Shown here: one piece after another, positions 5,298 through 35,746 of the stretch
Numbering within the stretch: position 1 is the first letter of the stretch
How the letters are laid out: each line of letters starts with the position of its first letter
Source: Caulobacter sp. D5
GTDB taxonomy: Bacteria; Pseudomonadota; Alphaproteobacteria; Caulobacterales; Caulobacteraceae
Reading direction: 5' to 3'
DNA: 64,000 nt
Assembly (NCBI RefSeq): GCF_003185805.1
Contig: NZ_QHJY01000033.1
Coordinates: 1 to 64,000 of the forward strand
Position numbers and translations under genes: made by a program
Notes under the pieces: model-generated
What the model was told of the DNA's origin: nothing
Database searches by the model: none
Seen by the model: only the letters and a program-made list of their open reading frames with translations

Positions 5298-5304
5298 AGG
5301 GCGG

Positions 5305-6060
5305 CTAGCCCATCCGGGCGCTGATCAGGAACCGGCTGCGGCTTTCGGCCGACTTGCGTTCAAGCGCCTGGCGCTCCTGCTGCTCGGTGGCGTCGAGCAT
5401 GGCTTCCAGCAGGCGCGAGAAGTGCAGGCGCATGGCCTGGCGGGCCGCCTTGGCGTCGCGGCGGCGCAGGGCCTCGACCACGGCGGCGTGCTCGTTCTGG
5501 CGGGCGTCGCCGTCGTGATGGCAGATCGACTCGTGGGTGCGGCGCACCTCCGGATCTTCCATGCGGAACTTCCAGAGGGTCTTGATCGTGTGGATGATGA
5601 CGCGATTGCCCGAGGCCGAGGCGATGGTCATGTGGAACTCGCGATCCACCGCGGTCGACCGGGCGTCGTCGTCGCCGGCCTCGACCATCTCGATCAGCAG
5701 GGCGTCGAGCTTGGCGAGATCCGCGTCCGAGATGATCGGCGCGGCCAGGGCGGCGGCCTCGGACTCGAACAGCGAGCGCGCCTCGGTCAGTTCGAAGGCG
5801 CTGACCGTCGGCAGGTTGTCGCCGCCGGCGCTGTCGGGTGCGACCGGACCGCAGACATAGACCCCCGAGCCGGCGCGGATGCGCAAGGTGCCCCGAGCCT
5901 GGAGCGCGATCTCGGCCTCGCGCACGGTCACCCGGCTGACGCCCAGCCGTTCGGACATCTCCCGCTCGCCCGGCAGCCTGGAGCCGGGCGGAAACTCTCC
6001 CGCCCGGACCATGCCGGCGATCTTGTCGGCGATTTCCTCGAACAGCCGGCGGTCGGCCAT
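5305..6060 (-). CDS. GntR family transcriptional regulator, FadR/FCD type
   Basis: A 251-residue protein with an N-terminal winged HTH (about 1-75; PPGSRLPGEREMSERLGVSR) and a C-terminal all-helical FCD domain (about 85-220). The FCD domain carries the acidic/His residues that bind a metal and carboxylate ligand (DREFH, HESI, EHAAVVEAL, AMRLHF). The start is supported by an AGAGGGG ribosome site. FadR-type regulators of this kind often sense uronates or related acids; that ligand is inferred here from the neighbouring lyase, ExuT-like carrier and SDR. Its own upstream region and the two other promoters of the locus carry AACCAATTT-like sites, so it is probably the local repressor and is autoregulated. 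It lies 96 bp downstream of the TonB receptor on the same strand. Confidence 0.88.
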   Translation of the reverse strand: MADRRLFEEIADKIAGMVRAGEFPPGSRLPGEREMSERLGVSRVTVREAEIALQARGTLRIRAGSGVYVCGPVAPDSAGGDNLPTVSAFELTEARSLFESEAAALAAPIISDADLAKLDALLIEMVEAGDDDARSTAVDREFHMTIASASGNRVIIHTIKTLWKFRMEDPEVRRTHESICHHDGDARQNEHAAVVEALRRRDAKAARQAMRLHFSRLLEAMLDATEQQERQALERKSAESRSRFLISARMG

Positions 6061-6097
6061 GGCGCCCCTCTAAGACGTTGTTGCGTCGCCAGATTTG

Positions 6098-6134
6098 CCC
6101 CAATCGGATTAAAATTGGAATAGCAAATTGGTTT
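6098..6134. promoter_or_regulatory. Candidate GntR operator between regulator and TonB receptor
   Basis: Between the end of the TonB receptor gene and the start of the GntR gene are CCAAT...ATTGG arms (6100-6104 and 6114-6118) and an AAATTGGTTT box (6125-6134). The same box occurs in opposite orientation at two other promoters in this locus (9131-9187 and 14554-14580). Assignment to the neighbouring GntR protein is inference. Confidence 0.45.
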
Positions 6135-6156
6135 GCACCACGGCCGCCAATCGGCC

Positions 6157-9057
6157 CTAGAAGCGCGCGCGTATCGAAGCGAAGAACTGCGGCCCGAAGT
6201 ACTGGTAGTTGCGGGTGCTGCCCTGGATCGGCATCGAGTCGACCTTGACCTCGTTGAACAGGTTGAGGCCCTGCAGGCGGATGTCGACCTTCTTGTTCAG
6301 CTTGTACTGGGCGGTGAAGTCGAAGGCGTCGCCGCCCGAGATGTAGCGCAGCTGAGCGTTGCCGCCGACGAAGTCCTGATAGTAGCGCGAGCGGTAGCGA
6401 TAGATGCCCTGCAGGGTCAGCGGGCCAGCCTCGTAATAGAGCTGGGCCGACAGCACGTGCTTGGAATAGCCGTTCAGGCCCGCGGCCGGGATCATGCCCT
6501 CGGTCACCACGCCGGTGTCGGGGTCGATGACGTCGCCCAGCCGGATGTCGTGGTTCTTGAAGTTGGTGATCGCGTAGTTGTAGCTCAGCTTGCCCCCGAA
6601 GCCGTCCAGAGGCTTGGGCAACCAGCTGAACTTGTTCGAGAGCGTGAACTCAGCGCCGTAGACGTGGCTCTTGTCGTCGCTGTTCTGGGTCTGGGTGACC
6701 GGCACCGTGACGTTCTGGCCGTCGATGACGAACTCTTCGTCGATGGTCACCGGGATGAAGCCGCCGGTGAACTGCTTGTAGTACAGCGTCGTCGCCAGGA
6801 TGGTGTCGCGGTTGTAGTAGTATTCCAGCGCCACGTCGGCGTTCCACGACATGATCGGCTTCAGGCGCGGGCTGCCGCTGGCGACGATTTCGCCGATGGC
6901 CTCCTGGATCGAGGTGAAGTCCGTGCCGTCCTGCAGGGTGATGGTCCGCCCCGCCGCCAGACTGCTGGGGGCCGGCCGCGACATGGCGCGGTAGAGCGCG
7001 ATGCGGCCGATCGTCTTGGGGTTCAAGTCGAAATTGGCGTTGACGCTGGGCAGCACGCGGAAGCTGGAGGCCTTGATCCGGGTCGGGTCGAACTCGCCGG
7101 TCTCGACCAGGCGGATCGAGCCGTCGCTGTTGTTGACCACTTCCAGGCCGGCCCGCAGCCCCTTGGAAACGACGCTGGTGTCGACGACGCGGACGCCGAA
7201 GTTGCCGCGCACCGGCATGCCCGCCGCCTCACCCTTGTAGGAGGCCATGACATAGCCTGACCACACCGTCTCGGTGACGTCGGCGTTGGCCACCGAGCGG
7301 GTGTCGCCCGTGCCGCCGGGATCTTCCGTGCCCAGATAGTTGCGGAACTGGCAGAGGGTGTCGAAGGTCGCCCAGCTGTGGATCGTGTTGTTGGGCGCGT
7401 CGGCCAGGTAGTCCGACTGCGGGAAATTGGTGCGGCAGGCCAGGTTCACCGCCCGGTCCACGGCCAGGCTGGCCTGGTCGATGGTCACCAGGTCGTCATA
7501 GGTGGTGTAGCGGCGGCGCGAATAGCGCAGGCCCGCGTCGACCTTGTTGATGAAGCCGTCGAGCGCGTAGCTGGCGTCGAAGCGGGTCGCGAAGATGCGG
7601 TCCTTCTTCTCCTCCTCCTCGCGGGTCAGGCGGGCGTCGTCGCTGAACAGCGACCAGTCGTCGAGGTTGAAGCGCGGGTCGATGGTGATGGTAGGCGCAA
7701 AGCCGTTGCGGGCGTCGTAGACGTAGGGCACGCGCTGATTGTTGATCGCCGTGCGCACGCCGTAGATGTCGAGCGGATCCGAGCGCAGGCGAACCGAGCG
7801 GGTAAGGTCGGTGCGGGTGGTCTGGCTGTAGGAGATGTCGGCCTTCAGGGTCAGGCGATCGGTGGCCTCGAACTCGAAATTGCCGCCGCCGCCGATATAT
7901 TCCTCTTCCCGCTGGAACAGGGTCGAGACCGACTGCAGCGTGCTCGAGCCCTCGGCGTAGAGCAGCCGGCCGTCATCGTCGTACTGCACGTTGTGCAGGT
8001 TGTAGCGGGTCTCGGCCAGGCCCAGGTCGTGGCGGTCTTCCTGGTAGTTCCGCTTGGAATATTCGACGTCGAAATTGGCGTCGAAGCGGTCGTTGGGCTG
8101 CCATTGCAGAGCGCCGAAGAAGGCGTCGCGCTTTTCCTTGGCGGTCAGTTGGCGATAGGTCATCGAGTTGGGCGTCAGGTAGAACGGCGTGCCGGCGGCG
8201 GCCTGGGCGCGGCTCACCTCGGTGCAGTTGCCGGTGCTGACGATGCTCGGGTTGCAGGCCACCCAGGTGTTCGACGCCACATAGGACTCGGCCGGGTCGT
8301 CGACCTGGTTGCGCTGGATCCCCAGTGAAATGCCGACATCGCCCAGCTTGCCCAGCTCGTACTGGTCGACATAGCTGGCCGTGCCGCGCCAGCCCCAGGG
8401 GTCGGAGCCGGTGATCCGCTTCTGGTAGGGATTGTAGTTGCCCTTGAGCTCCACCTGGGCCAGCCGCTTGCCGTAGTCGAGCGGCTTCTTGGTCTCCATC
8501 TCGATCGTGCCGGCGACGCCGCCCTCGATCAGGTCGGCCTGCTGCGACTTGTAGATCTTGATGCCGTTGAACAGTTCGGACGGGAACTGGCCGAAGTTGA
8601 CGGCGCGGTCGCCGCTGCCGTTCGAGGCCTCGCGGCCGTTGAAGGTGGTGGCCGACAGGAACGAGCCCAGGCCCCGCAGCGAGACTTCCGTCGGGCCGTA
8701 GTTGCCGCGGTCGGCGGTGGCGCCGGTGATGGTCATGATCGCTTCGCCGATCGACTGGCCCGGCAGGTCGCCGATCTCGTTGGCCGACAGGGCGTCGACG
8801 ATGGCCGTCGTGTCGCGCTTCACCGCGATCGAATTCTGCATGGTCTGACGGACGGCGCTGACCACCACCTCGTCGACCGAATTGTCGGTGATCGGCTGAT
8901 CGGCGGGCGCGGTGGCGACCGCTTCCTGAGCCGAAGCGCTGGCGGCCAGCGCGATGGCCGAGGCGGCGACGCCGCAGCTCAGAACCGACCGCAGGACCGC
9001 GAACCGCGCCTGGATGCCCAGAGTAGACTGGACGCGCGGAGTATTGGCGACGTGCAT
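6157..9057 (-). CDS. TonB-dependent receptor (Caulobacter type) of the uronate locus
   Basis: A 966-residue outer-membrane receptor. The N-terminus has a long signal peptide ending near SASAQ (about 44), then a TonB-box-like DEVVVSA, a plug domain containing ALSANEIGDLPGQSIGEAIMTITG, and a large beta barrel ending in aromatic Phe (FFASIRARF). Length above 900 and this plug motif match the Caulobacter/Xanthomonas sugar-related TonB receptor family. The start has a GGAGGGAG ribosome site 6 bp before the ATG. The upstream region holds ACCAATTT repeats. The substrate is probably an oligouronide, inferred from the neighbouring lyase, acetylesterase and ExuT-like carrier. The energy-coupling TonB/ExbBD genes are not in the window. 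Confidence 0.93.
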   Translation of the reverse strand: MHVANTPRVQSTLGIQARFAVLRSVLSCGVAASAIALAASASAQEAVATAPADQPITDNSVDEVVVSAVRQTMQNSIAVKRDTTAIVDALSANEIGDLPGQSIGEAIMTITGATADRGNYGPTEVSLRGLGSFLSATTFNGREASNGSGDRAVNFGQFPSELFNGIKIYKSQQADLIEGGVAGTIEMETKKPLDYGKRLAQVELKGNYNPYQKRITGSDPWGWRGTASYVDQYELGKLGDVGISLGIQRNQVDDPAESYVASNTWVACNPSIVSTGNCTEVSRAQAAAGTPFYLTPNSMTYRQLTAKEKRDAFFGALQWQPNDRFDANFDVEYSKRNYQEDRHDLGLAETRYNLHNVQYDDDGRLLYAEGSSTLQSVSTLFQREEEYIGGGGNFEFEATDRLTLKADISYSQTTRTDLTRSVRLRSDPLDIYGVRTAINNQRVPYVYDARNGFAPTITIDPRFNLDDWSLFSDDARLTREEEEKKDRIFATRFDASYALDGFINKVDAGLRYSRRRYTTYDDLVTIDQASLAVDRAVNLACRTNFPQSDYLADAPNNTIHSWATFDTLCQFRNYLGTEDPGGTGDTRSVANADVTETVWSGYVMASYKGEAAGMPVRGNFGVRVVDTSVVSKGLRAGLEVVNNSDGSIRLVETGEFDPTRIKASSFRVLPSVNANFDLNPKTIGRIALYRAMSRPAPSSLAAGRTITLQDGTDFTSIQEAIGEIVASGSPRLKPIMSWNADVALEYYYNRDTILATTLYYKQFTGGFIPVTIDEEFVIDGQNVTVPVTQTQNSDDKSHVYGAEFTLSNKFSWLPKPLDGFGGKLSYNYAITNFKNHDIRLGDVIDPDTGVVTEGMIPAAGLNGYSKHVLSAQLYYEAGPLTLQGIYRYRSRYYQDFVGGNAQLRYISGGDAFDFTAQYKLNKKVDIRLQGLNLFNEVKVDSMPIQGSTRNYQYFGPQFFASIRARF

Positions 9058-21451: not shown

Positions 21452-21604
21452 GGGCGCCGCAGTGCAGCACGAAAATGAGGAGCCGAAGGCGCATCAAGGC
21501 GTTTGCCAGAACGGGGCAGTTGGTCTCATGCTCTCGTTCAGACCGTCGGAAAGGCGGCTGAAAAGAGTTTGGGACGGAACAACAGGAACAAGGCGCGTAG
21601 CTGC

Positions 21605-22951
21605 ATGAATCAGGATTTCGCACTGCCGACGTCATCGGGCCTCGAGCGCGACGCGCGGCGATTGCACGCCGACCACAAGGGCGTCCGGCCTGGCGAGATC
21701 GCCATCGGCGTGATCATCGGGCGAACCTCGGAGTTCTTTGACTTCTTCGTCTACGCCATCGCTTCGGTGCTGGTATTCCCTCACCTCTTCTTTCCGTTCG
21801 TGGACCGGCTGACGGGCGTCCTGTGCTCGTTCGCGATCTTCTCGCTGGCCTTCGTGGCCCGCCCGATCGGCTCTGCGATCTTCGGCGTCATCGACCGCAA
21901 CTATGGCCGCGGCGTGAAGCTGACCATCGCCCTCTTCCTGCTGGGCGGCTCGACGGCCGCGATGAGCTTCCTGCCGGGCTACGCCACGGCCGGCGCCGCG
22001 GCGATCTGGGCCCTGGCGGCCTTCCGCATCGGCCAGGGTCTGGCCCTTGCGGGCGCCTGGGACGGCATGGCCTCGCTGCTGGCGCTGAACGCCCCTGAGA
22101 AGAAGCGCGGCTGGTACGCGATGATCCCGCAGCTGGGCGCGCCGTTCGGCTTCATGCTGGCCAGCGGCCTGTTCGCCTATTTCGTCGCCAGCCTGGGCTC
22201 GGCCGACTTCCTCGACTGGGGCTGGCGCTATCCGTTCTTCGCGGCCTTCGCGATCAACGTCGTGGCCCTGTTCGCCCGCCTGCGCATCGTCGCCACCGAG
22301 GAGTTCGGCCAGCTGTTCGAAAAGGGCCAGCTGAGCCCCGTTCCGCTGACCAGCCTGATGAAGGCGCAAGGATCCAACGTGATCATCGGCGCCTTCGCCC
22401 CGCTGGCCACCTTCGCCATGTTCCACCTGGTGACGGTGTTCCCGCTGTCGTGGGTCAGCCTGCACGACGACGGCGGCGAGGCGCTGAACTTCCTGCGCAT
22501 CGAACTGGCCGGCGCCCTGGTCGGCGTGGTCGGGATCATGGCCTCCGGCTGGATCGCCGACCGCATCAGCCGCCAGAACCAGCTGGCGCTGTCGGCCGTG
22601 CTGATCGGCATCTTCAGCCTGGCGGCCCCGTGGCTGCTGGACGCCGGCAGCCTGGGCCAGACCGTCTATGTGGTGGTGGGCTTCGCGATCCTGGGCCTGT
22701 CGTTCGGTCAGGCCTCGGGCGCGGTCAGCTCGGGTTTCCTGCGCAAGTTCCGCTACAGCGGCGCGGCCCTGACCTCGGACCTTTCGTGGCTGATCGGCGC
22801 GGGCTTCGCGCCCCTGGCCGCCCTGGCCCTGGCCAGCTTCTGGGGCCTGCCGGCCATCGGGCTTTATCTGGCCTCCGGCGCGGTGGCGACCCTGATCGCC
22901 CTGACCATCGACCGTCGCCGCCGACTGCGCAAGGCCGCCCCCAAGGCCTAA
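21605..22951 (+). CDS. MFS transporter, metabolite:H+ symporter (MHS) type
   Basis: A 448-residue carrier with about 12 membrane helices. The N-terminal RTSEFFDFFVYAIASVLVFP, then ARPIGSAIFG and GRGVKLTIALFLLGGSTA, are the signatures of the MHS family (citrate, proline/betaine, alpha-ketoglutarate and related carriers). The ATG at 21605 is chosen over an upstream in-frame ATG at 21503 because the extra residues are hydrophilic and unlike the family. It is divergent from cyoA and ends at a strong terminator. Substrate unknown. The placement next to the oxidase operon suggests an organic acid fuel, but this is weak. Confidence 0.88.
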   Translation: MNQDFALPTSSGLERDARRLHADHKGVRPGEIAIGVIIGRTSEFFDFFVYAIASVLVFPHLFFPFVDRLTGVLCSFAIFSLAFVARPIGSAIFGVIDRNYGRGVKLTIALFLLGGSTAAMSFLPGYATAGAAAIWALAAFRIGQGLALAGAWDGMASLLALNAPEKKRGWYAMIPQLGAPFGFMLASGLFAYFVASLGSADFLDWGWRYPFFAAFAINVVALFARLRIVATEEFGQLFEKGQLSPVPLTSLMKAQGSNVIIGAFAPLATFAMFHLVTVFPLSWVSLHDDGGEALNFLRIELAGALVGVVGIMASGWIADRISRQNQLALSAVLIGIFSLAAPWLLDAGSLGQTVYVVVGFAILGLSFGQASGAVSSGFLRKFRYSGAALTSDLSWLIGAGFAPLAALALASFWGLPAIGLYLASGAVATLIALTIDRRRRLRKAAPKA

Positions 22952-23012: not shown

Positions 23013-25325
23013 TCAGAAGTCGGCCGACAGCGTGACCTGGAAGGTCCGGTGCGAGCCCGGCCGGAAGGTCGCGGCCGTGTTCACCGTGGTGCTGATCGTG
23101 CCCAGGTAGTCCTCGTCGAAGATGTTATCGACGTTGATGCGGGCCTTGACCTGCTTCAGCGGCCCGACGCCGAAGCCGTCGCCGAGATCCACATAGGCGT
23201 TCCAGATGGTGTAGCCGTCGGTCTTTTCGGTATTGGTCATGTTGGTGTAGCGGTCGCTGAGATGGCGAGCCGAGACGTTGACCACGGCCCAGTCGACCGG
23301 CTCCCAGGTCACCCCGCCCTGGAACAGCCAGGTCGGGAAGTCGGGCAGCGTGTTGCCCGCGATGGCGTTGGTGCCGAAGTTGTTCTCGAACTCGGCGCGA
23401 TTGTACGACAGGTTGGTGTTGAAATAGATCTTGCCGCCCAGAAGCTCCGGCTTCCACTGGCCGCTGAACTCGGCCCCGTGCGCCTCCACGGCCCCGACGT
23501 TCTGGTAGAAGGTCTCGGTGGTCGTGCTGCCCGGCACCACCGAGGCGTAGGACTGCAGCCGGTTGTCGAAGGCGGTGTAGTAGACCACGACCGAGGCGTT
23601 GAACGTCGCGCGGTTGGCGCGGTAGCCCAGTTCCAGGTTCTGCGAGGTCTCCGGCTCGGGTCCGGGCACGCTCGGGCTGGCCGCGGAGAAGATGTCGTCG
23701 GCGCCGCGCGGCAGGGCCAGGTTCTCCGAATAGGAGGCGAATACCTGGTCGCGGCTGTTGATCGAGTAGACCAGACCCACCTGCGGCAGGAAGCCGTCCT
23801 TCCAGTTGTCGGTGATCGTCGGCTTGCGCTGGGCGATGTAGTCGGCCGGGTTGCGATAGCCGCTGATCTTGTAGTCGATGTCGGTCGACTTGAAGCCGAC
23901 CTCGACCTTAAGGCGGTCGTCGAGCAGCTTGATGGTGTCCTTGAGGAAGAACTGGGTGGTCTCGCGGGTCGAGACGTAGTTGCGCTGCAGGTGCACCGGC
24001 TCGTTCAGCAGCGGCGTGCCGTCCGGATCGCCGTTGACGGTGTTATAGCGCGCCTGGGTCCGGTGGTAGTCGTCCTTCTCCAGCCAGACGCCCGCCTGCA
24101 CGGTGTGAACGCCCGTCCGCCAGGTCCCGCCGACCGTGACACCCTTGCGGATGCCGTCGACGCCCGACAGGCCGTATTGCAGGCCCTTGGGCGCGGTCAG
24201 GCCCGAGACATAGTTCTTCTCGGCGTTGTAGCTGGCCAGCGAGGTGGCGTAGGCCTCCGGCGAGACGCCGTAGCCGCCCTTGTCCTCGTAATAGGCGGTC
24301 GAGCGGATCTCGAAATTCTCGCCGATCGGCTTGTTCAGCGACAGGCCGTAGAGGTGATCCTGCCGGGCGTTGACCGCGAACTTGTAGTACTGGTTGTAGA
24401 GCGAATTCGAATACTTAACCCCGGTCGTGGTCTCCGGCAGGCTAGGCACGAAGCCGAGATAGGCGAAGTCGCGACCCGAACGGCCGAAGGCGTCGCCCGC
24501 CGTGCCCAGGTACTGGGCCTTGGTGATCGACGGGGAGTCATAGTCGTAATAGTCGTTGTGCACGGTCTGGAACGTCAGGTTCCCGCCGCTCTCGAAGGCG
24601 TAGTCGACCTTGCCCTCGTAGTGCTCGCGCTTGATCGTGCCGGGCCCGCGCCACAGGTCGCCCTTCACCCACGAGCCGGCCACATAGCCCGAGAAGTTGC
24701 CCACCTTGCCGCTCTCCAGGCGCAGGAAGCTGCGACGCAGGTTGTCTTCGCCCCAGGTCTGGCTGGCCGAGCCGCCGGCTTCGGCGTCAGGCGTCTTGGT
24801 GAAGTAGTCGACGATCGGACCCAGCGAGGCGTAGCTGGGCAGGGCGACGTCGCCGGCGCCGGCCGAGGCCTGCACGCGGGCCAGGTTCTCGTTGTCGACA
24901 TAGCGATAGATCGGGCTGCCGCCGAACTGGTCGCTACGGCCCATCGGGATGCCGTCGAGCAGGAAGCCGATCTGCTGGAAGTTGAAGGCCCGCACCGACA
25001 CCGAGTTGCCGAACTCGTACATGCCCAGGGCGTCGTTGGCCTGGACGTTGAAGCCCGGCAGGCTCTCCAGCATCTTCAGGCCGGTGACGCCGGCCGGGGC
25101 CGACAGCAGCGCCTCGCGGGTGATCGAGACCGTGGCCGTGGCCTGGTCGGTGCCGATGGCGACGCTGGCCTCCGACACGCGACGACCGGTGACCACGACG
25201 GCGTCGACCTCTTCGGGCGCGCTCTCCTGAGCCAGGGCCGGCGATGCGCCGCAGAGCACGCTGGCGGCCATCAGGGCCAGCTTCCAGCGCGGCGCGACGT
25301 CGGGTTTCGAGTGGGCTTTGGTCAT
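23013..25325 (-). CDS. TonB-dependent receptor adjacent to the monooxygenase pair
   Basis: A 770-residue outer-membrane receptor. Signal peptide ends near ALAQ (about 33), followed by a TonB-box-like DAVVVTG, a plug domain with MLESLPGFNVQANDALG and a LDGIPMGRSDQFGG loop, and a barrel ending in VTLSADF. The start is set by the CAGGGGAT ribosome site 5-12 bp before the ATG at 25325; an upstream in-frame ATG lacks one. It lies 391 bp downstream of the SsuD-like monooxygenase on the same strand and may import the substrate handled there. Substrate assignment is inference from location. Confidence 0.92.
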   Translation of the reverse strand: MTKAHSKPDVAPRWKLALMAASVLCGASPALAQESAPEEVDAVVVTGRRVSEASVAIGTDQATATVSITREALLSAPAGVTGLKMLESLPGFNVQANDALGMYEFGNSVSVRAFNFQQIGFLLDGIPMGRSDQFGGSPIYRYVDNENLARVQASAGAGDVALPSYASLGPIVDYFTKTPDAEAGGSASQTWGEDNLRRSFLRLESGKVGNFSGYVAGSWVKGDLWRGPGTIKREHYEGKVDYAFESGGNLTFQTVHNDYYDYDSPSITKAQYLGTAGDAFGRSGRDFAYLGFVPSLPETTTGVKYSNSLYNQYYKFAVNARQDHLYGLSLNKPIGENFEIRSTAYYEDKGGYGVSPEAYATSLASYNAEKNYVSGLTAPKGLQYGLSGVDGIRKGVTVGGTWRTGVHTVQAGVWLEKDDYHRTQARYNTVNGDPDGTPLLNEPVHLQRNYVSTRETTQFFLKDTIKLLDDRLKVEVGFKSTDIDYKISGYRNPADYIAQRKPTITDNWKDGFLPQVGLVYSINSRDQVFASYSENLALPRGADDIFSAASPSVPGPEPETSQNLELGYRANRATFNASVVVYYTAFDNRLQSYASVVPGSTTTETFYQNVGAVEAHGAEFSGQWKPELLGGKIYFNTNLSYNRAEFENNFGTNAIAGNTLPDFPTWLFQGGVTWEPVDWAVVNVSARHLSDRYTNMTNTEKTDGYTIWNAYVDLGDGFGVGPLKQVKARINVDNIFDEDYLGTISTTVNTAATFRPGSHRTFQVTLSADF

Positions 25326-25716: not shown

Positions 25717-26787
25717 TCAGCCGAATAGCGGCCCGTGATCCAGGCGCGGCAGCACGTGCCTGGCGAAGAGATCGGCTTCGGCGATGTGCGGGTAGCCCGA
25801 CAGGATGAAGGCCTCGAGCCCGATCTCGCGATAGGCGTTGATCTTGGCCAGCACCTGGTCGGGATCGCCGACGATGGCCGCGCCGCAGCCCGACCGCGCC
25901 CGGCCGATGCCGGTCCACAGATTGTCCTCGACATAGCCGTCGCCGGCCGAGGCCTCGCGCAGCTCGGCCTGGCGGCGCACCCCGAACGAGGCCGCGTCCA
26001 GCGACCTGGCGCGGATGGCCTCGCCTTCCTTGGCGTCCAGCTTGGACAGCAGCCGGTCGGCGGCCGCCCTCGCCTCTTCCTCCGTCTCGCGCACCACCAC
26101 GTGCACCCGGTAGCCGAAGCGAAGGGTGCGGCCATGGGCGGCGGCGCGGGCGCGCAGGTCCTCGATGGTCTCCTTCACCACCTCCATGCGGTCGGGCCAC
26201 ATCAGGTAGACGTCGGCGCCCTTGGCCGCGACCTCGCGGGCCTCGTGCGACAGGCCGCCGAAATAGAACGGCGGACACTTGCCCGAGACCGTGCGCAGGC
26301 GCGGCGGATCGAGCTTCAGCTGGTAGAACTCGCCCTGGAAATCGATGCTCTCGCCGTTCAGCAAGCTGCGCAGGATCGTCATGGCCTCCAGCGTGCGGGC
26401 GTAGCGCGGCCCGGACGCCAGGGTCTCGCCCGGCAGGTCGCTGGAGATGATGTTGAGGGTCAGGCGGCCCTCCAGCATCTGGTCCAGGGTGGCGATCTGG
26501 CGGGCCAGCTGCGGCGGCCACATCTCGCCGCAGCGAATGGCCAGCAGCAGCTTCAAGCGGCGTAGGATCGGCGCCAGGCCGCCGGCGAAAGCCACGCCCT
26601 CGATGCCGAGGTTGTAGCCCGACGGCAGCAGCAGGTTGTCGAACCCGCCGCTCTCGGCCGCCAGCGCGATGTCGCGGCAGTGGGCGTAGGACGCCTTCAG
26701 CGCCGGATCGGGAACGCCGAGGAACTCGTAGTCGTCGTCGCACAGCGCCGAAAACCACGAGACTTCGCAGGGAGGCAGGGTGCTCAC
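25717..26787 (-). CDS. FMNH2-dependent sulfonate monooxygenase (SsuD/SmoC-like LLM protein)
   Basis: A 356-residue bacterial-luciferase-like (TIM-barrel) monooxygenase. Visible landmarks are WFSALCDDDYEFLGVPD at the N-terminus, LPSGYNLGIEG, NIISSDLPGE, FYFGGLSHEAREVAAKGADVYLMWPD and the C-terminal WTGIGRARSGCGAAIVG. These match the alkanesulfonate monooxygenase group; the FGGLS and GRARSGCG segments belong to its substrate/FMN region. SsuD-type enzymes cleave C-S bonds and release sulfite. The GTG start overlaps the stop of the upstream aldo/keto reductase (GTGA). From memory of the family it is closest to sulfoquinovose monooxygenase SmoC, which fits the reductase partner. A partner flavin reductase is not in the window. 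Confidence 0.85.
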   Translation of the reverse strand: MSTLPPCEVSWFSALCDDDYEFLGVPDPALKASYAHCRDIALAAESGGFDNLLLPSGYNLGIEGVAFAGGLAPILRRLKLLLAIRCGEMWPPQLARQIATLDQMLEGRLTLNIISSDLPGETLASGPRYARTLEAMTILRSLLNGESIDFQGEFYQLKLDPPRLRTVSGKCPPFYFGGLSHEAREVAAKGADVYLMWPDRMEVVKETIEDLRARAAAHGRTLRFGYRVHVVVRETEEEARAAADRLLSKLDAKEGEAIRARSLDAASFGVRRQAELREASAGDGYVEDNLWTGIGRARSGCGAAIVGDPDQVLAKINAYREIGLEAFILSGYPHIAEADLFARHVLPRLDHGPLFG

Positions 26788-27695
26788 GGCAGGGGAACTC
26801 CGCGGCTGGCGGTGAGGATCGCGTACCACTGGGTGCGGCTCAGCTTCACCCGCAGGGCGTCGGCCGAGGCCTTGATGCGTTCGGGCGTCTGGGAGCCGAC
26901 GATCGGGATCGGCCGCGACGGGTGGGCCATGATCCAGGCCAGGGCGACGGCGGCGCGGTCGACGAGCTGCTCGCGGGCGATGACGTCGAGGGCCTCGATC
27001 ACGGCGCGGCCGCGATCGTCGGTCCCCTGCCCCACCAGACGACCACCGCCCAGCGGCGACCAGGCCAGCACGGCCAGGTCACGTTCAAGCGCCTGGTCGA
27101 GCACGCCGTCCGACAGCGGCTCGATGGCCAGGGGCGAGAACTCCGGCTGGATGCTGGCCAGGGCGAACGGCAGGTGGGCCTGCAGGGCCGCCACCTGGCT
27201 GGGCAGATAGTTCGACACGCCGACGGCGTCGATCTTGCCCTGCTCGCGCAGCTTGGTCAGGGCCGCGGCGATCTCGGCAGGATGGGCCAGAACGTCGGGT
27301 CGGTGGATCTGGTAGAGGTCGATCTTCTCGACGCCCAGCCGCTGCAGCGAGGCCTCACAGGCGGCGACCAGATAGTCGGCGCTGGAGTCGTAGGGCACGC
27401 CCAGGATGATGCCGCCCTTGGAGGCCAGCACGAACTTCTCGCGCAGGTGCGGGGCGTCGCGCAGCACCTTGCCGAGCAGGACTTCCGACGAGCCGAAGCC
27501 ATAGGGCGTGTCGGCGCCGTAGACGTCGGCGGTGTCCAGAAGGGTGATCCCGCTTTCCAGCGCGGTCTCGACCAGCAGGCGGGCGTCGGCGACCGATTCA
27601 CCCTTGAAGCGCCACATTCCCCAGGCCAGCGGAGAAACGGAAATCCCGCTCTTGCCGAGCGGACGGGGTTCGTGTGACTGGCGGCTCTCACTCAT
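26784..27695 (-). CDS. Aldo/keto reductase, possible 6-oxoglucose reductase (SmoB-like)
   Basis: A 303-residue TIM-barrel aldo/keto reductase with the catalytic tetrad Asp54, Tyr59, Lys93 and His131 (DTADVYG, ASKGG, IHRPD) and an NADP-binding C-terminus (PIVGSQTPERIKASADALRV). It is cytosolic. Its stop overlaps the GTG of the monooxygenase by four bases, so the two are translationally coupled. In the sulfoquinovose monooxygenase pathway the oxidised C6 aldehyde left after C-S cleavage is reduced by an aldo/keto reductase (SmoB). That role fits the pairing but is inferred. Only 32 bp separate its start from the divergent Gfo/Idh/MocA gene. Confidence 0.85.
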   Translation of the reverse strand: MSESRQSHEPRPLGKSGISVSPLAWGMWRFKGESVADARLLVETALESGITLLDTADVYGADTPYGFGSSEVLLGKVLRDAPHLREKFVLASKGGIILGVPYDSSADYLVAACEASLQRLGVEKIDLYQIHRPDVLAHPAEIAAALTKLREQGKIDAVGVSNYLPSQVAALQAHLPFALASIQPEFSPLAIEPLSDGVLDQALERDLAVLAWSPLGGGRLVGQGTDDRGRAVIEALDVIAREQLVDRAAVALAWIMAHPSRPIPIVGSQTPERIKASADALRVKLSRTQWYAILTASRGVPLP

Positions 27696-27727
27696 GGGTA
27701 CGTGCTTTCAGTTCGGGGGATTTGAAG

Positions 27728-28828
27728 ATGGTTGAGAAGCTCAAGGTCGGTCTGATCGGGGTCGGCATGATGGGCAACGAGCATCTGCGCAACCTCGAAC
27801 TGATGCCGGACGCCCACGTGGCGGCCATCGCCGATCCGACGCCGGGCTCGCTGGACTGGGCGCGGGCGACGCTGGGCGACAAGGCCGACGGCGTCGAGAC
27901 CTTCGCCGGCGGCGCCGAGATGCTGGCCAAGGTCGAACTCGACGCGGTGATCATCGTCTCGCCCAACTTTACCCACCGCACGGTGCTGGAGGCGGCGCTG
28001 GCGACCAACGTGGCGATCCTCTGCGAGAAGCCGCTGTGCAGCGACCTGGCCGACGCCCGCTGGGCGGCCGAGACGGCCGAAGCCCGCACGGCCAAGACCG
28101 GCGCCCTCTTCTGGACGGCCATGGAGTACCGCTTCATGCCGCCGGCCGCCGAGTTCATCCGGCGCGTGCACGCCGGCGACGTCGGCAAGCTGGCCATGCT
28201 GTCGATCCGCGAGCACCGCTTTCCGTTCCTGGTCAAGGTGGGCGACTGGAACCGGTTCGCCGCCAACACGGGCGGCACCATGGTCGAGAAGTGCTGCCAC
28301 TTCTTCGACCTGATGCGCCTGATCACGCGGGCCGAGCCGGTCTCGGTGTTCTGTTCGGGGGCCATGGACGTCAACCACCTGGACGAACGCTATGACGGCA
28401 GGACGCCGGACATCATCGACAACAGCTACACCGTCGTCGAATTCGACAACGGCGTGCGGGCCATGCTCGACCTCTGCATGTTCGCCGAAGGCGTCGAGGA
28501 GCAGGAGACCCTGACCGCCACGGGCTCGGAAGCCCGTCTGGAAGCCCTGATCCCGCCCGGCGACCTGGTTTTCGCCCCGCGCGTGCCGCTGGGATCGCCC
28601 AAGAAGATGGTCCGCGAGCACGTGCCGGTCGACGAGGCGGCGATGAAGGCGGGCACCCACCATGGTTCGACCTTCTACCAGCTGCGGGCCTTCCTCGACG
28701 CGGTCCGCGACGGCGGAGCGCCCGCCGTCACCGCCCGCGACGGCCTGATGGCCGTGGCCATCGGAACCGCCGCCGAGATCAGCGCCCGCGAGAAGCGGGT
28801 GGTGACGCTGGCTGAACTGGGGTTCTGA
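27728..28828 (+). CDS. Gfo/Idh/MocA family protein, possible NAD-dependent sulfoquinovosidase
   Basis: A 366-residue protein with an N-terminal Rossmann fold (GVGMMGNEH, 11-19), the conserved EKP of the family (Glu100-Lys101-Pro102) and a C-terminal alpha/beta domain with TGGTMVEKCCHFFDL, where Lys188 and His191 are the likely catalytic pair. The start is the ATG at 27728; an earlier in-frame ATG at 27674 would lie inside the divergent aldo/keto reductase. The family includes sugar dehydrogenases and NAD-dependent glycosidases (GH4/GH109/GH188-like chemistry). Next to SmoC/SmoB-like genes, a GH188 (SqgA) sulfoquinovosidase is an attractive reading, but an inositol or sugar dehydrogenase is equally allowed by motifs alone. 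Confidence 0.85.
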   Translation: MVEKLKVGLIGVGMMGNEHLRNLELMPDAHVAAIADPTPGSLDWARATLGDKADGVETFAGGAEMLAKVELDAVIIVSPNFTHRTVLEAALATNVAILCEKPLCSDLADARWAAETAEARTAKTGALFWTAMEYRFMPPAAEFIRRVHAGDVGKLAMLSIREHRFPFLVKVGDWNRFAANTGGTMVEKCCHFFDLMRLITRAEPVSVFCSGAMDVNHLDERYDGRTPDIIDNSYTVVEFDNGVRAMLDLCMFAEGVEEQETLTATGSEARLEALIPPGDLVFAPRVPLGSPKKMVREHVPVDEAAMKAGTHHGSTFYQLRAFLDAVRDGGAPAVTARDGLMAVAIGTAAEISAREKRVVTLAELGF

Positions 28829-28958: not shown

Positions 28959-31241
<2,283 letters not shown>

Positions 31242-31397: not shown

Positions 31398-32963
31398 CTA
31401 CTCCCGCGCCTTCAGCAGCACCGTCGGGAAGTCGGCCGGAACCGCCCCGTCGGCGTCACGCAGCAGGTGGCGGCCGCCCACCGGTAGGGGCAACGGTATC
31501 GACAGGCCGTCCTGCTCCTCCAGCCGCTGGAACAATCGCTCCGTCAGGCGCGCGACCACCGTCTCGTGGCCGGGACTATGGATCAGGTTCACCGTCTCGT
31601 TCGGATCGGCCTGCAGGTCGTAGAGTTCGTCGATGTCCCAGACGCCGTGATAGTGGATGTACTTGTAGCGGTCCTGGCGGATGGCGTGAACCGTCGGCGT
31701 CTGCGGAAAGTTGCGCTCCCAGTAGTATTCGTAGAGCAGTTCGGTGCGCCACGGCGGGTTCTCGCCGCGCGTCAGGGGCAGCATGTCCTCGCCTTGCAGG
31801 CCCTCGGGGGCCTCCAGGCCGGCGACCGCCAGCAGGGTCGGCGCGATGTCGAGATTGGCCACCACCTGCTCGACCACCGTCCCGCCCGGGAACAGCTCGG
31901 GGCAGCGGGCCAGCATCGGGATGCGCATCGACTCCTCGTAGGCCGTGCGCTTGTCGATCAGCCCGTGCTCGCCGAACGCGAAGCCGTTGTCGCCCATGTA
32001 GAGCACCAGCGTGCTGTCGAGATCGCCCCTGGCCTCCAGGTGGTCGAGGACGCGGCCGATGCCCTCGTCGACCGACAGCATCGTCTCGGCGTAGCGCTTG
32101 TAGTAGTGCGCAAGGTCCAGGTTGGTGTGGTACGGGAAATCGGCCCCGTGCCAGCTGTTGCGCTGGTTCTTGACCCAGACGGGCTGGCCTTGCGCCTGCT
32201 CGGGGGGCAGGTTCAGGCTCTCCGGATAGCGGAACTCGGCGTCGTCGTAGCGGCCCAGGTGGCGCGGCGCGGGAATGAACTCGGCGTGCACCGCCTTGTG
32301 GGCCAGGAACAGCAGCCAGGGCTTGTCGCCCTCGCGGCTCTCCAGCCAGTCCATGGCGTAGTCGGTCAGCTCATCGGTCAGGTAGCCCTTCTGGGGCACA
32401 CGCTCGCCGTTGACGTTCAGACCGTCGCCGTTGGGCCAGTAGTCGCCCTGGCCCTTGAAGCTGATCCAGTGGTCGAAGCCGCGCTGCGGGTCGTCGCCCT
32501 CCACGCCCATGTGCCACTTGCCGATGAAGGCGGTCTCGTAGCCGGCCGCTTGCAGGTACTCCGGGAAGAAGGTCACGTCCGGCCGGATCGGGTGGTTGTT
32601 GTCCACCACCCGGTGTTGGTGCGCGTAGAGGCCGGTGAAGATGGTCGCCCGCGACGGCGAGCACAGGGCCGTGGTCACGAAGGCGTTCTTGAAATGCGCG
32701 CCCTCGGCGGCCAGCCGGTCGAGCACCGGGGTCTCGACGAAGGGCTGGGCGCCGGTGAAGCCCATGGCGTCGAACCGATGGTCGTCGGTCAGCACCACGA
32801 CGATGTTGCGCGGCTTGACGCCGGGCTTGGCCTTCAGGACGAGGTCCTTGGGCCGCGGCGACGCGTCCTCTTCGCTCGACGCGTCCCAGGAGACGGCATG
32901 GAACGGCTTGTCCAGGCCCTGGGCGGCCAGCAGCACGCCGCGGGTGGTGGTGTCTTGCGTCAT
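31398..32963 (-). CDS. Cytoplasmic type I sulfatase
   Basis: A 521-residue sulfatase with the formylglycine motif Cys101-Ser-Pro-Ser-Arg105 (CSPSR), metal ligands Asp60/Asp61 in VVLTDDHR, GKWHMG and the late MGDNGFAFGEHGL. It has no signal peptide: the first 50 residues are hydrophilic, so it should act in the cytoplasm. The start at 32963 is preceded by GGGAG and lies 14 bp after the stop of the MFS carrier, implying an operon for uptake and then desulfation of a small sulfate ester. Maturation needs a formylglycine-generating enzyme, not encoded here. The open frame continues upstream only as a reading-frame shadow of the carrier gene. Substrate (sugar sulfate, choline sulfate or other) is undetermined. 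Confidence 0.92.
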   Translation of the reverse strand: MTQDTTTRGVLLAAQGLDKPFHAVSWDASSEEDASPRPKDLVLKAKPGVKPRNIVVVLTDDHRFDAMGFTGAQPFVETPVLDRLAAEGAHFKNAFVTTALCSPSRATIFTGLYAHQHRVVDNNHPIRPDVTFFPEYLQAAGYETAFIGKWHMGVEGDDPQRGFDHWISFKGQGDYWPNGDGLNVNGERVPQKGYLTDELTDYAMDWLESREGDKPWLLFLAHKAVHAEFIPAPRHLGRYDDAEFRYPESLNLPPEQAQGQPVWVKNQRNSWHGADFPYHTNLDLAHYYKRYAETMLSVDEGIGRVLDHLEARGDLDSTLVLYMGDNGFAFGEHGLIDKRTAYEESMRIPMLARCPELFPGGTVVEQVVANLDIAPTLLAVAGLEAPEGLQGEDMLPLTRGENPPWRTELLYEYYWERNFPQTPTVHAIRQDRYKYIHYHGVWDIDELYDLQADPNETVNLIHSPGHETVVARLTERLFQRLEEQDGLSIPLPLPVGGRHLLRDADGAVPADFPTVLLKARE

Positions 32964-32977
32964 CGGCTTGCTCCCGC

Positions 32978-34252
32978 TCAGGCCTGGGCCGTCTCGAGAC
33001 GCGGCACGAAGACCTGCAGCCAGGCCACGGCGATCAGGTAGGAGACGGCGGCGATGGCCAGCAGCGGCAGGTAGCCGGCGCCGCGCTGGAGCAGTTCCCC
33101 CGCCAGCAGCACGATGCCCATGCCGGCGAGGTTGCCGCAGAAGGCGCCGAAGCTGGTCACCGAGCCGACCCGGTCCTTGGGCGTGATGTCGGCGATGGTG
33201 GCGAACATGTTGGTCGAGAAGCCCTGATGCGCGGCGAGCGTCAGGCCCAGCAGCAGCACCGCCAGCCAGTAGTTGTCGACCAGCACCGCCAGCGGCACGG
33301 GCGTCACCAGCAGGGCGCAGACCAGCATCGAGCCCTTGCGGACGGTGTTGATCGAAAGGCCCCGGGCCAGCAGCCGCGAGGCGATCCAGCCGGAGAACAC
33401 CGAGCCGACGGCCGCGAAGCCGTAGACCACGGCCAGGGGCTTGCCGATGTCGTGCATGCCGACGTGGAAGACCCGATGGAAGAAGTCCGGGGCCCAGAAC
33501 AGCAGCAGCCACCAGACCTGGTCCGACAGCGCCTTGGCGCCGGCCACGCCCCAGGTGCGGCGGTCCGACAGCAGCACCTTCAGGCCGATCTTGCCCGTCG
33601 GCCGCCCTGCGACCTCGACCGGCTTGTCGGGCGCGAGCTGCAAGCCGCGCGTCGAGACGAACCACAGGGCCACCCACAGGAAGCCCAGCGCGCCGACCAC
33701 CACGAACGAGGCCCGCCAACCAACGACCGCCGACAGCAGCGGCAGCAGCAGCGGCGTGACGATGGCTCCGACGTTGGAGGCGCCGTTGGAGATGCCGAAC
33801 GCCACCGACCGCATCCGCGCCGAGAACAGCGCCCCGATGGTCTTCACATAGGACGGCGTGCCCATCGACTCCGTCGCGCCCAGGGCCACGCGGGCGGCCG
33901 AGAACTGCAGCATGGTGTTGGCGCCGCCATGGGCCATGGCCGCCAGGCTCCAGGTCGCCACCCCCACGGGCGCGGCCCATTTGACGCCGAGCTTGTCGAC
34001 GATGCCGCCGGTGAACAGGAAGGCGATCGCCGCCGAGAACTGGAAGAGCGAGGCGAGGCGCCCGTAGTCGGCGTCGCTCCAGCCCATGTCCTGCTCGATG
34101 ATCGGCTTGAGCACGGCGATCACCTGCCGGTCCACGTAGTTGAGGATGCCGGCGAAGATGATCAGGCCCAGCAGCAGCCAGCGACGGCGCTCGGCCGCGG
34201 TCTGGGCGGGCGTCTGACCCGCGGTCTGGGACACGGCTGCGGCATCGGTCAT
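32978..34252 (-). CDS. MFS transporter (ACS/hexuronate-like) paired with sulfatase
   Basis: A 424-residue carrier with about 12 membrane helices. NYVDRQVIAVLKPIIEQDMGW at the N-terminus, ATESMGTPSYVKTIGALF and NGASNVGAIVTPLLLPLL are typical of the anion:cation symporter group related to ExuT. It precedes the sulfatase by 14 bp in a probable two-gene operon. Anionic sulfated or acidic sugars are plausible cargo. Its 5' side faces the divergent dipeptidase gene across 276 bp in which no further gene was seen. Confidence 0.9.
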   Translation of the reverse strand: MTDAAAVSQTAGQTPAQTAAERRRWLLLGLIIFAGILNYVDRQVIAVLKPIIEQDMGWSDADYGRLASLFQFSAAIAFLFTGGIVDKLGVKWAAPVGVATWSLAAMAHGGANTMLQFSAARVALGATESMGTPSYVKTIGALFSARMRSVAFGISNGASNVGAIVTPLLLPLLSAVVGWRASFVVVGALGFLWVALWFVSTRGLQLAPDKPVEVAGRPTGKIGLKVLLSDRRTWGVAGAKALSDQVWWLLLFWAPDFFHRVFHVGMHDIGKPLAVVYGFAAVGSVFSGWIASRLLARGLSINTVRKGSMLVCALLVTPVPLAVLVDNYWLAVLLLGLTLAAHQGFSTNMFATIADITPKDRVGSVTSFGAFCGNLAGMGIVLLAGELLQRGAGYLPLLAIAAVSYLIAVAWLQVFVPRLETAQA

Positions 34253-34528: not shown

Positions 34529-35746
34529 ATGTTCCGTCCCCTCCTCCTCGCCACCGTGGGCCTGCTGGCCCTGGCGACCGCCGGCGCAACCCGCGCCGCC
34601 GATCTCGACGCCAAGGCCGTCCATGCCCGCGTCCTGGTGCTCGACAGCCACGTGGACGTGCCCCAGGACCTGGGCGTCGGCGCGCACGAGGCGGCCGTTG
34701 ACGGCGACGGCCAGGTCGACCTGCCCAAACTCGAGCACGGCGGCGTCGATGCAGCGGTGCTGGCGGTCTTCGTCTCGCAAGGCCCGCGTACGCCGGAGGG
34801 CTACGCCAAGGCCCGCAAGGACGCCGACGCCAAGCTGGCCGCCATTCGGGGGATCGCCGAGCGCCATCCCGACCGCGCCGTACTGGCCCTGAAGGCCGCC
34901 GACGTCGAGGCCGCCGCCAAGGCCGGCAAGCGGGCGATCATCGTCGGCTTCCTCAACGCCTACCCGTTCGGCGAAGACCTGGCGCCGATCGACGCATATT
35001 ACACCTTGGGCGTGCGCAGCTTCGGCTTCGTCCACGCCGGCAACAACGCCTTCGCCGACTCCTCGCGTCCCAGCGGCGGGACCAAGGTCGAGTGGGGCGG
35101 GCTGTCGCCGCTGGGCAAGCAGGCGGTGGCCAGGCTCAACGACCTGGGCGTGATCATCGACGTCTCGCAGCTGACGCCGGACGGTGTGAAGCAGGTTCTG
35201 GCGCTCAGCCGCGCGCCGGTCGTGGCCAGCCACTCGGGCGTGCAGGGCGTGGTCGACAGCCCGCGCAACCTGTCAGACGCCGAACTCGACGCCATCGCCG
35301 CCAAGAGCGGGGTCGTGCAGATCGTCGCCTTCGGCCCCTACCTCGTGCGGCCCGGCGTCGATTTCCCGCCCAAGGTCGCTGCCCTGCGCGCGCAATACGC
35401 CCTGCCGGTCGCCTATGTCCGCCCTGCCGACGGGACCGAGGCGCTGACGCCCGAGAAGCGGCTGGACTACAGCCACGCCGTCAACGCCCTGCTGCCCAAG
35501 GCGACGGTGAAGGACCTGGCCGACTCCGTCGACTACGCCGTCAAGCGCGTCGGGATCGACCATGTGGGCCTGTCGTCCGACTTCAACCACGGCGGCGGCG
35601 TCGTCGGCTGGAGCAACGAGGGCGAAGCCGCCAACGTCACCGCCGAGCTGGTGCGGCGCGGCTATTCCGAGGCCGATATCGGCAAGCTGTGGGGCGGCAA
35701 CTACCTGCGCGTCTTCCGCGCCGTCGAGAAGGCCGCCAAGCACTAG
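34529..35746 (+). CDS. M19 (renal dipeptidase-like) protein with altered metal site
   Basis: A 405-residue secreted or periplasmic protein (signal peptide ending near TRAAD, about 24) of the membrane dipeptidase family. Conserved parts: HVDVP (His41, Asp43), ASHSGV (His235), GIDHVGLSSDFNH and GGNYLRVF. Two ligands of the binuclear zinc site are replaced compared with human dipeptidase: the bridging Glu position in the GxEGG/MENGY segment is Leu142 (GFLNAY), and the His of DLAH is Gln214 (DVSQ). The second change is seen in some bacterial members, but the loss of Glu is unusual. It may bind one metal or be non-catalytic. It lies 118 bp before the amidase operon; relation to it is uncertain. 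Confidence 0.85.
   Translation: MFRPLLLATVGLLALATAGATRAADLDAKAVHARVLVLDSHVDVPQDLGVGAHEAAVDGDGQVDLPKLEHGGVDAAVLAVFVSQGPRTPEGYAKARKDADAKLAAIRGIAERHPDRAVLALKAADVEAAAKAGKRAIIVGFLNAYPFGEDLAPIDAYYTLGVRSFGFVHAGNNAFADSSRPSGGTKVEWGGLSPLGKQAVARLNDLGVIIDVSQLTPDGVKQVLALSRAPVVASHSGVQGVVDSPRNLSDAELDAIAAKSGVVQIVAFGPYLVRPGVDFPPKVAALRAQYALPVAYVRPADGTEALTPEKRLDYSHAVNALLPKATVKDLADSVDYAVKRVGIDHVGLSSDFNHGGGVVGWSNEGEAANVTAELVRRGYSEADIGKLWGGNYLRVFRAVEKAAKH

Follow-up and report, generated by a model that had tools for sequence, protein, structure and literature searches.

A candidate sulfo-SMO type module for sulfoquinovoside-to-glucose conversion with a GH188 sulfoquinovosidase in Caulobacter sp. D5

Introduction

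In the sulfo-SMO (sulfo-ASMO) pathway of Agrobacterium tumefaciens and Novosphingobium aromaticivorans, an SsuD-like sulfoquinovose (SQ) monooxygenase and an aldo/keto reductase yield sulfite and glucose, and in N. aromaticivorans no flavin reductase is clustered with these genes, according to the available text of PMC9594981. Sulfo-SMO clusters are recognized by SmoB and SmoC genes at most 10 genes apart (accessible part of PMC13372026). Kaur et al. 2023 (PMC10755693) describe GH188 enzymes that take the place of GH31 in a number of SQ pathways, sulfo-SMO among them; the available portion of that paper presents GH188 as near-universal in the Roseobacter sulfo-SMO clusters, and Sphingomonas Leaf17 is among the clusters in a figure legend.

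Here, we analyzed a window of 64,000 nucleotides from Caulobacter sp. D5, the whole stretch of DNA under study. Sequence comparisons suggest, with a probability of roughly 87%, that the window carries a sulfo-SMO type sulfoquinovoside-to-glucose module with a GH188 sulfoquinovosidase. Plant sulfolipid sugars would probably be imported, SQ cut out of them and converted to glucose and sulfite. The occurrence of GH188 with sulfo-SMO is already published, and the core of the module is a further example.

Results

Overall organization of the locus

The gene of the SmoC/SquD-type monooxygenase (25717..26787, minus strand; 356 aa, GTG start), a predicted FMNH2-dependent sulfoquinovose monooxygenase, shares 4 bases at its start with the stop of a SmoB/SquF-like aldo/keto reductase gene (26784..27695, minus strand; PF00248), whose product is the proposed 6-oxo-glucose reductase. 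The gene of the GH188 (SqgA-type) protein, a predicted NAD+-dependent sulfoquinovosidase (27728..28828, plus strand, ATG start), is divergent, with 32 bases separating it from the ATG of the reductase at 27695; both arrangements had been described in the initial annotation and were confirmed. Beyond GH188 lie a TonB_B receptor (28959..31241, minus strand; PF00593/PF07715), proposed as the outer-membrane port linked to the module, an accessory sulfatase with a C-S-P-S-R motif (31398..32963, minus strand; PF00884), and an MFS_B transporter (32978..34252, minus strand; PF07690), the proposed inner-membrane carrier. The sulfatase, located between carrier and receptor, was absent from the initial annotation.

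Family membership of the GH188 protein and the monooxygenase

The Gfo/Idh protein matches the structures 8qc2 (FlSqgA, 340 bits), 8zn9 (deposited as a putative oxidoreductase, 333 bits) and 8qc3 (ArSqgA, 327 bits), and the next match is an ordinary dehydrogenase at 88 bits (3ezy). Eight of the nine residues named in the available text of PMC10755693 could be mapped, and all eight are kept in the window protein and invariant across 35 Caulobacteraceae rows. These substrate residues are K101, Y134, R164, L168, K170, E187, H191, and H311, corresponding to K107, Y136, R166, L170, K172, E189, H193, and H321 of ArSqgA. The residue printed as E163 of ArSqgA in that text is V in both PDB sequences; an E stands one position on and is kept as E162. 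A GH188 variant with an altered sulfonate-binding Tyr, described in the accessible part of PMC11465081, was excluded, as the window protein keeps Leu. In a tree built from chosen loci, 22 GH188 rows separate from four outgroup rows on a root branch supported at 71/85, with two of the outgroup rows being poor (L168_iolG_part in the wrong frame and L102 doubtful; that Ruegeria gene has a further row in the right frame). Bit scores, tree, and kept residues thus support membership of the GH188 family, from which NAD+-dependent cleavage of SQ glycosides is predicted.

The best structural matches of the monooxygenase are 7olf (389 bits) and 7oh2 (386 bits), which we take to be SmoC, versus 243 and 231 bits for the SsuD-type 7jv3 and 1nqk; a search by the codes 7olf and 7oh2 found no paper. 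Trees were built from 32 and 24 chosen loci, the latter with genome paralogues chosen by HMM and with L008 (no match) and L005 (the window gene itself) left out. The window enzyme falls in a 99/98 clade with 7olf and 7oh2, apart from SsuD and with long branches to the outgroups, and the same clade holds the Ruegeria and Rhizobium SL42 enzymes, whose genes adjoin a flavin reductase and an aldo/keto reductase. These placements support a SmoC-type family member, predicted to release sulfite from SQ. Within this SmoC clade, six Rhizobium loci (L105, L106, L109, L113, L114, and L118) and three Nitrospirillum loci (L104, L161, and L164) lack both reductase and GH188, and in Rhizobium WSM4643 the gene lies beside an ABC/arabinonate-dehydratase set. 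The SmoC clade may therefore not act on SQ everywhere.

The best NCBIfam models, alkanesulfonate monooxygenase for the monooxygenase and inositol 2-dehydrogenase for the Gfo/Idh protein, would suit an ordinary alkane- or methanesulfonate monooxygenase beside an ordinary sugar or inositol dehydrogenase, as would the depositors' names of 7olf and 7oh2, methanesulfonate sulfonatase and alkanesulfonate monooxygenase. However, these matches lie far below the curated cut-offs (271 versus 518 bits and 122 versus 355 bits, respectively), and the trees put the two proteins with SmoC-type and GH188 proteins. Furthermore, the genome holds a second such monooxygenase gene on contig C31, on a long branch on the SsuD/SmoC side, outside the SmoC clade and adjoining a PF01613 reductase, which also speaks against an ordinary pair; we consider that account very improbable. 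The SmoC-type and GH188 assignments made in the initial annotation are hence retained, and grouping with SsuD/MsuD or with inositol-type dehydrogenases was observed for neither protein.

Co-occurrence of GH188 and SmoC and the near exclusion of GH31

Among 299 sampled Caulobacteraceae genomes, GH188 was found in 42 and SmoC in 53, and all 42 were among the 53 (GH188 and SmoC, 42; GH188 only, 0; SmoC only, 11; neither, 246; Fisher p 2e-41, with kinship ignored). The confinement of GH188 to genomes with SmoC again argues against a chance pairing of ordinary enzymes. Of the 41 other genomes with GH188, 38 were covered by larger regions, with G045, G069, and G289 left out for their partial matches, and these regions were compared together with the 80 nearest named SmoC loci, with some overlap between the sets. 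In the named loci, GH188 is present in 46, GH31 in 20, both in one, and neither in 15. Because the two are near-mutually exclusive beside SmoC, GH188 appears to substitute for GH31, as had been proposed, with exceptions in four of the 38 Caulobacteraceae loci (L042, L045, L048, and L049), where GH188 is accompanied by a GH31 of another group. Two GH31 genes, alternative candidates for the sulfoquinovosidase, are found on other contigs of the window genome.

The aldo/keto reductase

The reductase residues D54, Y59, K93, and H131, presumably the catalytic tetrad, are invariant across 24 rows. The protein scores 173 bits to 7bby, which we take to be AtSmoB, and 169 bits to E. coli YdhF, and its clade is separate from canonical SmoB on a long branch in a tree of chosen loci. 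A relative of at least 50% identity lies near SmoC in 67 of the 80 named loci; some of the other 13 are on short contigs. The initial identification as SmoB is thus favoured by position, through the overlap with SmoC and its recurrence, more than by sequence, which is remote from 7bby. This makes it the weaker assignment of the core: as to the ten-gene spacing of SmoB and SmoC, the window genes overlap, yet SmoB is named mainly by position.

Receptor and carrier linked to the module

TonB_B-related receptors are found in 25 of 39 loci including the window and in 53 of the 80 named loci, and MFS_B carriers recur in 27 of 39 and 54 of 80. Import by TonB and MFS proteins, as first proposed, is therefore supported by conservation, though with a different receptor (28959-31241) and with an MFS carrier at 32978-34252, both outside the interval first annotated. 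Another TonB receptor, flanking the monooxygenase (23013..25325, minus strand), to which the initial annotation had pointed, is present and lies outside the module: it has no match in the 38 Caulobacteraceae and 80 named loci (118 in all, some overlapping), which rules it out as the module transporter, and the close relative G203 (locus L039), whose other genes are 90-98% identical, lacks it at the corresponding position. An MHS-type carrier (21593..22951), also outside the module, was ruled out since it was found in L039 alone.

Flavin supply, sulfite and regulation

No flavin reductase SmoA is clustered with the module, and PF01613 and PF03358 are unmatched on the window's contig. The genome-wide search suggested earlier gave candidates on other contigs, with three PF01613 and five PF03358 proteins over the cut-off. 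YeiH-type putative sulfate exporters lie near SmoC in 27 of the 80 named loci, which fits with sulfite release; none was found in the window genome, where four proteins encoded elsewhere and scoring over the cut-off, two for PF00174 and two for TauE, are candidates for sulfite handling. The LacI regulator of relatives is best matched at only 50% in the window genome, and no regulator was assigned.

The sulfatase and its receptor clade

The nearest solved relatives of the sulfatase, 7p24 (305 bits) and 5g2v (291 bits; presumably BT4656), are GlcNAc-6-sulfatase types that act on 6-O-sulfated sugars, and we take both to be S1_11 sulfatases. Of the putative recognition-triad residues, D337 and R339, flanking K338, align with the solved chains and the His is displaced by one residue; a predicted structure (mean pLDDT 33, four rows) was discarded. 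In L039, L096, L097, and L166, the run of module genes includes a relative of at least 60% identity; in L155 such a relative is found some 7 kb away.

In the receptor tree, from which rows with at most 400 aligned residues or at most 30% identity were excluded and eight loci in the same place as others dropped (L163, L127, L145, L094, L090, L158, L156, and L133), the six sulfatase-linked receptors (five in the gene run and one about 7 kb off) all fall in one 10-row clade with an SH-aLRT of 99. Three more members of this clade accompany a PhyH dioxygenase, and L040 has neither gene. PhyH mostly tracks this clade; considered as a possible SQ dioxygenase, it is only weakly related to oxygenases that modify sugars and ectoine. 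The remaining 60 rows have no sulfatase (>55% identity) and two PhyH (Fisher p 2e-6 for the sulfatase and 8e-9 for either gene, with kinship ignored).

This association, together with the 6-O-sulfated substrates of the solved relatives, would fit a module whose substrate is a modified or other 6-sulfo-sugar glycoside determined by the sulfatase and the receptor sub-clade. The unaltered substrate residues of GH188, the absence of both accessory genes from L040, the distant sulfatase of L155, and the sulfatase relatives that G136, G178, and G250 carry apart from modules of this kind argue otherwise, and a changed substrate seems unlikely to us. That the sulfatase is a bystander landed in the operon is a reasonable possibility, if not the favoured one. 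Most modules lack it (3 of the 80 named loci have a relative of at least 60%), that of L155 is not adjacent, and the twin-arginine start present in other relatives is absent from the window protein and three relatives. Against a bystander, the sulfatase recurs with four Sphingomonadales modules, of which L096 and L166 keep the MFS-sulfatase-receptor order of the window, and the only match of at least 60% in plasmid records lies inside such a module. We infer a role of the sulfatase in the uptake route of the SQ module. A more specific and quite doubtful proposal is a Caulobacterales/Sphingomonadales sub-type, in which a matched cassette of the receptor clade, MFS carrier, sulfatase, and often PhyH would import 6-sulfonated (SQ) as well as isosteric 6-O-sulfated gluco-sugars, all leading to glucose; alternatively, the imported substrate would be a sulfoquinovoside with two modifications. 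Under this proposal, the window sulfatase, whose export signal seems to be lost, would act in the cytoplasm after import by the MFS carrier.

Discussion

In the sulfo-SMO reading of the locus, sulfoquinovosides such as SQ-glycerol would pass the outer membrane through TonB_B and the inner membrane through MFS_B, and GH188 would cleave the glycoside via transient NAD+ oxidation at C3. SmoC, drawing FMNH2 from a flavin reductase whose gene lies outside the cluster, would oxygenate C6 to give sulfite and 6-oxo-glucose, and the aldo/keto reductase would convert the latter to glucose.

Among the matches listed, titles and abstract beginnings gave no report in which sulfoquinovose is linked to a clustered sulfatase or a TonB receptor, and the word 'TonB' is absent from the main text of PMC13372026 and PMC12890257. 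The available text of PMC10755693 describes no sulfatase or PhyH cassette and does not discuss transporters; within this literature, the sulfatase-bearing variant was not found in print. The receptor clade with sulfatase and dioxygenase points to a sulfur-sugar substrate beyond the published schemes examined.

Like that of N. aromaticivorans (available text of PMC9594981), the window cluster is without a flavin reductase. For the window sulfatase, the closest known systems are the S1_11-type 6-O-sulfatases BT3177 and BT4656, as its best structural matches are 6-O-sulfatase types. These Bacteroides enzymes serve glycosaminoglycan and mucin use, and the putative recognition-triad His of the window sulfatase is out of line. 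Agrobacterium has an ABC importer for SQ-glycerol and its own sulfoquinovosidase, presumably GH31, in contrast to the GH188, TonB receptor, and MFS carrier of the window, and the window reductase is remote from 7bby, the presumed Agrobacterium SmoB. In Ruegeria TM1040 (L168) and Rhizobium SL42 (L167), whose SmoC proteins are about 52-53% identical to that of the window, GH188 lies near and opposite to SmoC-SmoB as in the window, whereas their clustered flavin reductase, GntR regulator, and TRAP importer set them apart. Recognizing that Caulobacter- and Sphingomonas-type bacteria may rely on a TonB receptor plus an MFS carrier for this uptake, in place of an ABC or TRAP importer, helps to read such turnover from genomes.

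Gene organization and identity of the core enzymes

With reading frames picked from codon use and homologues, the monooxygenase gene (SmoC; 25717-26787, minus strand) was found to overlap a SmoB-like reductase gene (26784-27695, minus) by 4 bases, and the gene of a Gfo/Idh/MocA-fold protein (GH188; 27728-28828, plus) lies 32 bases from the reductase start and faces a TonB receptor gene (TonB_B; 28959-31241, minus). The receptor, a sulfatase (31398-32963, minus) and an MFS carrier (MFS_B; 32978-34252, minus) form one run with the sulfatase in the middle. A Peptidase_M19 (membrane dipeptidase) gene (34529-35746) adjoins the module, and its relatives occur near the modules of L039, the locus of the close relative G203 (91%), and of the related loci L061 (83%) and L155 (50%).

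As the initial annotation had proposed, the monooxygenase groups with SmoC-type enzymes and not with SsuD. It scores 389 and 386 bits against 7olf and 7oh2, which we take to be SmoC chains, vs 243 and 231 bits against the SsuD-type 7jv3 and 1nqk; a literature search by the codes 7olf and 7oh2 found no paper on these chains. In a 34-row tree with long outgroup branches, it joins 7olf, 7oh2 and the Ruegeria TM1040 and Rhizobium SL42 enzymes in a 99/98 clade that excludes SsuD, and 45 positions are identical across all 26 SmoC rows compared and different in both SsuD rows. The Ruegeria and Rhizobium SL42 enzymes neighbour a GH188 relative, an aldo/keto reductase and a flavin reductase. On a Rhizobium sp. 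WSM4643 plasmid (L169, 8989-10047), a monooxygenase with 75% identity to the window SmoC adjoins a LacI regulator, an ABC importer and an L-arabinonate dehydratase, with no reductase or GH188 among its annotated neighbours; from this neighbourhood, the SmoC clade may act on other substrates besides sulfoquinovose (SQ).

The Gfo/Idh protein, likewise, is GH188-type. Its PDB matches are 8qc2 (340 bits), 8zn9 (333 bits, deposited as a putative oxidoreductase) and 8qc3 (327 bits), vs 88 bits for the next chain, 3ezy. In PMC10755693, 8QC2 is FlSqgA together with NAD and SQ, 8QC3 is ArSqgA, and nine SQ-contacting residues are given. Eight of the nine agree with both PDB sequences (construct offset 13), and all eight are conserved in the window protein; the ninth, E163, is V in both PDB sequences with an E adjacent, which the window protein also conserves. 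The contact residues are invariant across 35 Caulobacteraceae rows. The protein groups with the GH188 rows, 22 in all, in a 26-row tree, on a root branch of only 71/85 with two poor outgroup rows.

The third identification, of the aldo/keto reductase as SmoB, is weaker. The protein is an AKR family member, but it shows no special closeness to 7bby, presumably AtSmoB (173 bits vs 169 to YdhF), and a long branch separates its 27-row clade from three canonical SmoB rows. We tentatively assign it as SmoB because its gene overlaps SmoC and its relatives lie near SmoC in 67 of the 80 best of 578 loci.

Distribution of the module and its glycosidases

Among 299 Caulobacteraceae genomes, a sample from a larger group, GH188 (E below 1e-80; next genome 1.9e-25) occurs in 42 and SmoC in 53, and all 42 fall within the 53. 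At 39 GH188 loci (the window's and 38 others), some of which stop at contig ends, the recurrent ORF clusters are SmoC (34/39), SmoB (27/39), MFS_B (27/39) and TonB_B (25/39), with all others in at most 5/39. The SmoC ORF is missing in L043, L045, L053, L054 and L060, whose genomes carry SmoC elsewhere or just beyond the stretch. In named genomes, the best 80 of at least 578 SmoC loci (Caulobacterales, Sphingomonadales, Rhizobium, Nitrospirillum and others) also contain MFS_B (54/80), TonB_B (53/80), GH188 (46/80), LacI (37/80), YeiH (27/80) and PhyH (6/80).

An HMM built from 7 GH31 rows detected GH31 in 20 of these 80 loci; one (L149) has both glycosidases and 15 have neither. GH188 and GH31 thus mostly substitute for each other at SmoC loci, in line with the proposed replacement of GH31, and PMC10755693 reports mutual replacement across a wider range. 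Both occur in 4 of the 38 GH188 loci other than the window's (L042, L045, L048 and L049), which argues against strict exclusion. The GH31 of these four belongs to the L149 group. It shares 28-31% identity with the GH31 proteins found at five further SmoC loci and might have a different function. It adjoins the GH188 module in all four, and in L042 and L045 an additional MFS gene and more genes in common come after it.

On the Zymomonas mobilis ZM4 plasmid pZZM402 (L170, 1-10627), a GH188 protein with 57% identity to the window's neighbours a class II aldolase, an aldose epimerase and a fucose/arabinose isomerase-family protein, with two MFS carriers, a TonB receptor and a semialdehyde dehydrogenase nearby; this gene set looks like a sulfoglycolytic SQ cluster.

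Transport, flavin supply and sulfur handling

The receptor initially assigned to the module, TonB_A (23013-25325, minus), was rejected, as it does not recur at related loci, unlike TonB_B and MFS_B. The latter two would serve as the module transporters, with direction and substrate presumed. In L039, SmoC comes directly after the MHS carrier (21593-22951 in the window). TonB_A is missing at that site, where the other genes are 90-98% identical; it was gained or lost recently.

PF01613 reductases are encoded on three other contigs of the genome (C290, C495 and C31), and those of C495 and C31 lie near other luciferase-type genes, leaving the C290 enzyme as a candidate SmoC partner by elimination only. 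Five PF03358 proteins exceed the cut-off. No YeiH exporter was found in the genome; two TauE and two PF00174 proteins are encoded elsewhere in it.

The receptor-sulfatase cassette

The window sulfatase carries a CSPSR motif; among solved structures it is nearest to 7p24, a mucin-desulfating sulfatase, and 5g2v, an N-acetylglucosamine-6-sulfatase. Relatives of at least 60% identity lie within the gene run in L039, Novosphingobium L096, Sphingomonas L097 (after the receptor) and Sphingobium yanoikuyae L166, the sole such match among plasmid records; that of Sphingomonas L155 lies outside the run, about 7 kb off the module with other genes intervening. L096 and L166 share the order reductase, SmoC, PhyH, MFS, sulfatase, receptor, and GH188 was not seen on the short L096 contig. 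Within the 299 genomes, relatives of at least 68% are confined to five (window, G203, G136, G178 and G250; next 54%), and no module proteins were found within the 12-18 kb fetched around those of G136, G178 and G250.

A receptor tree of 70 rows (quick method, no bootstrap) places the six receptors with this sulfatase in their locus in one 10-row clade (SH-aLRT 99), together with three PhyH rows and one row with neither; the other 60 rows include the sulfatase (>55% identity) in 0 and PhyH in 2. Fisher p values for the association, which ignore kinship, are 2e-6 and 8e-9. Because this clade unites Sphingomonadales and Caulobacteraceae, whose other receptors fall outside it, the cassette for uptake apparently travelled independently of the catalytic core.

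The PhyH-family dioxygenase adjoins SQ-module genes, mostly MFS or receptor, at L051 (10600-11364), L067, L070, L093, L096, L116, L131, L151, L155 and L166. Beside the module of L166 on plasmid pKN1, a run at 3517-6862 encodes an NtaA/DmoA-family monooxygenase, an FAD-binding protein and a ferredoxin-like protein, near a putative sulfate exporter and a serine acetyltransferase.

An arginine pair at the sulfatase start is present in L097, L155 and three free-standing copies and absent in the window, L039, L096 and L166; the start, read by eye, suggests that the latter four are cytoplasmic. According to PMC10154612, S1_11 sulfatases act on 6-O-sulfated sugars (GlcNAc or, in aquatic bacteria, L-galactose), which they recognize via a His together with an Asp/Arg pair. 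The window protein is a candidate member: an Asp/Arg pair flanking a conserved Lys aligns with the solved chains, and the His is displaced by one residue. 6-O-sulfated glucose would be near SQ in shape, and one importer might, as a guess, take up both. The core module is a further example of the published type, and the receptor-sulfatase cassette is a variant for which no description was found in the literature surveyed.
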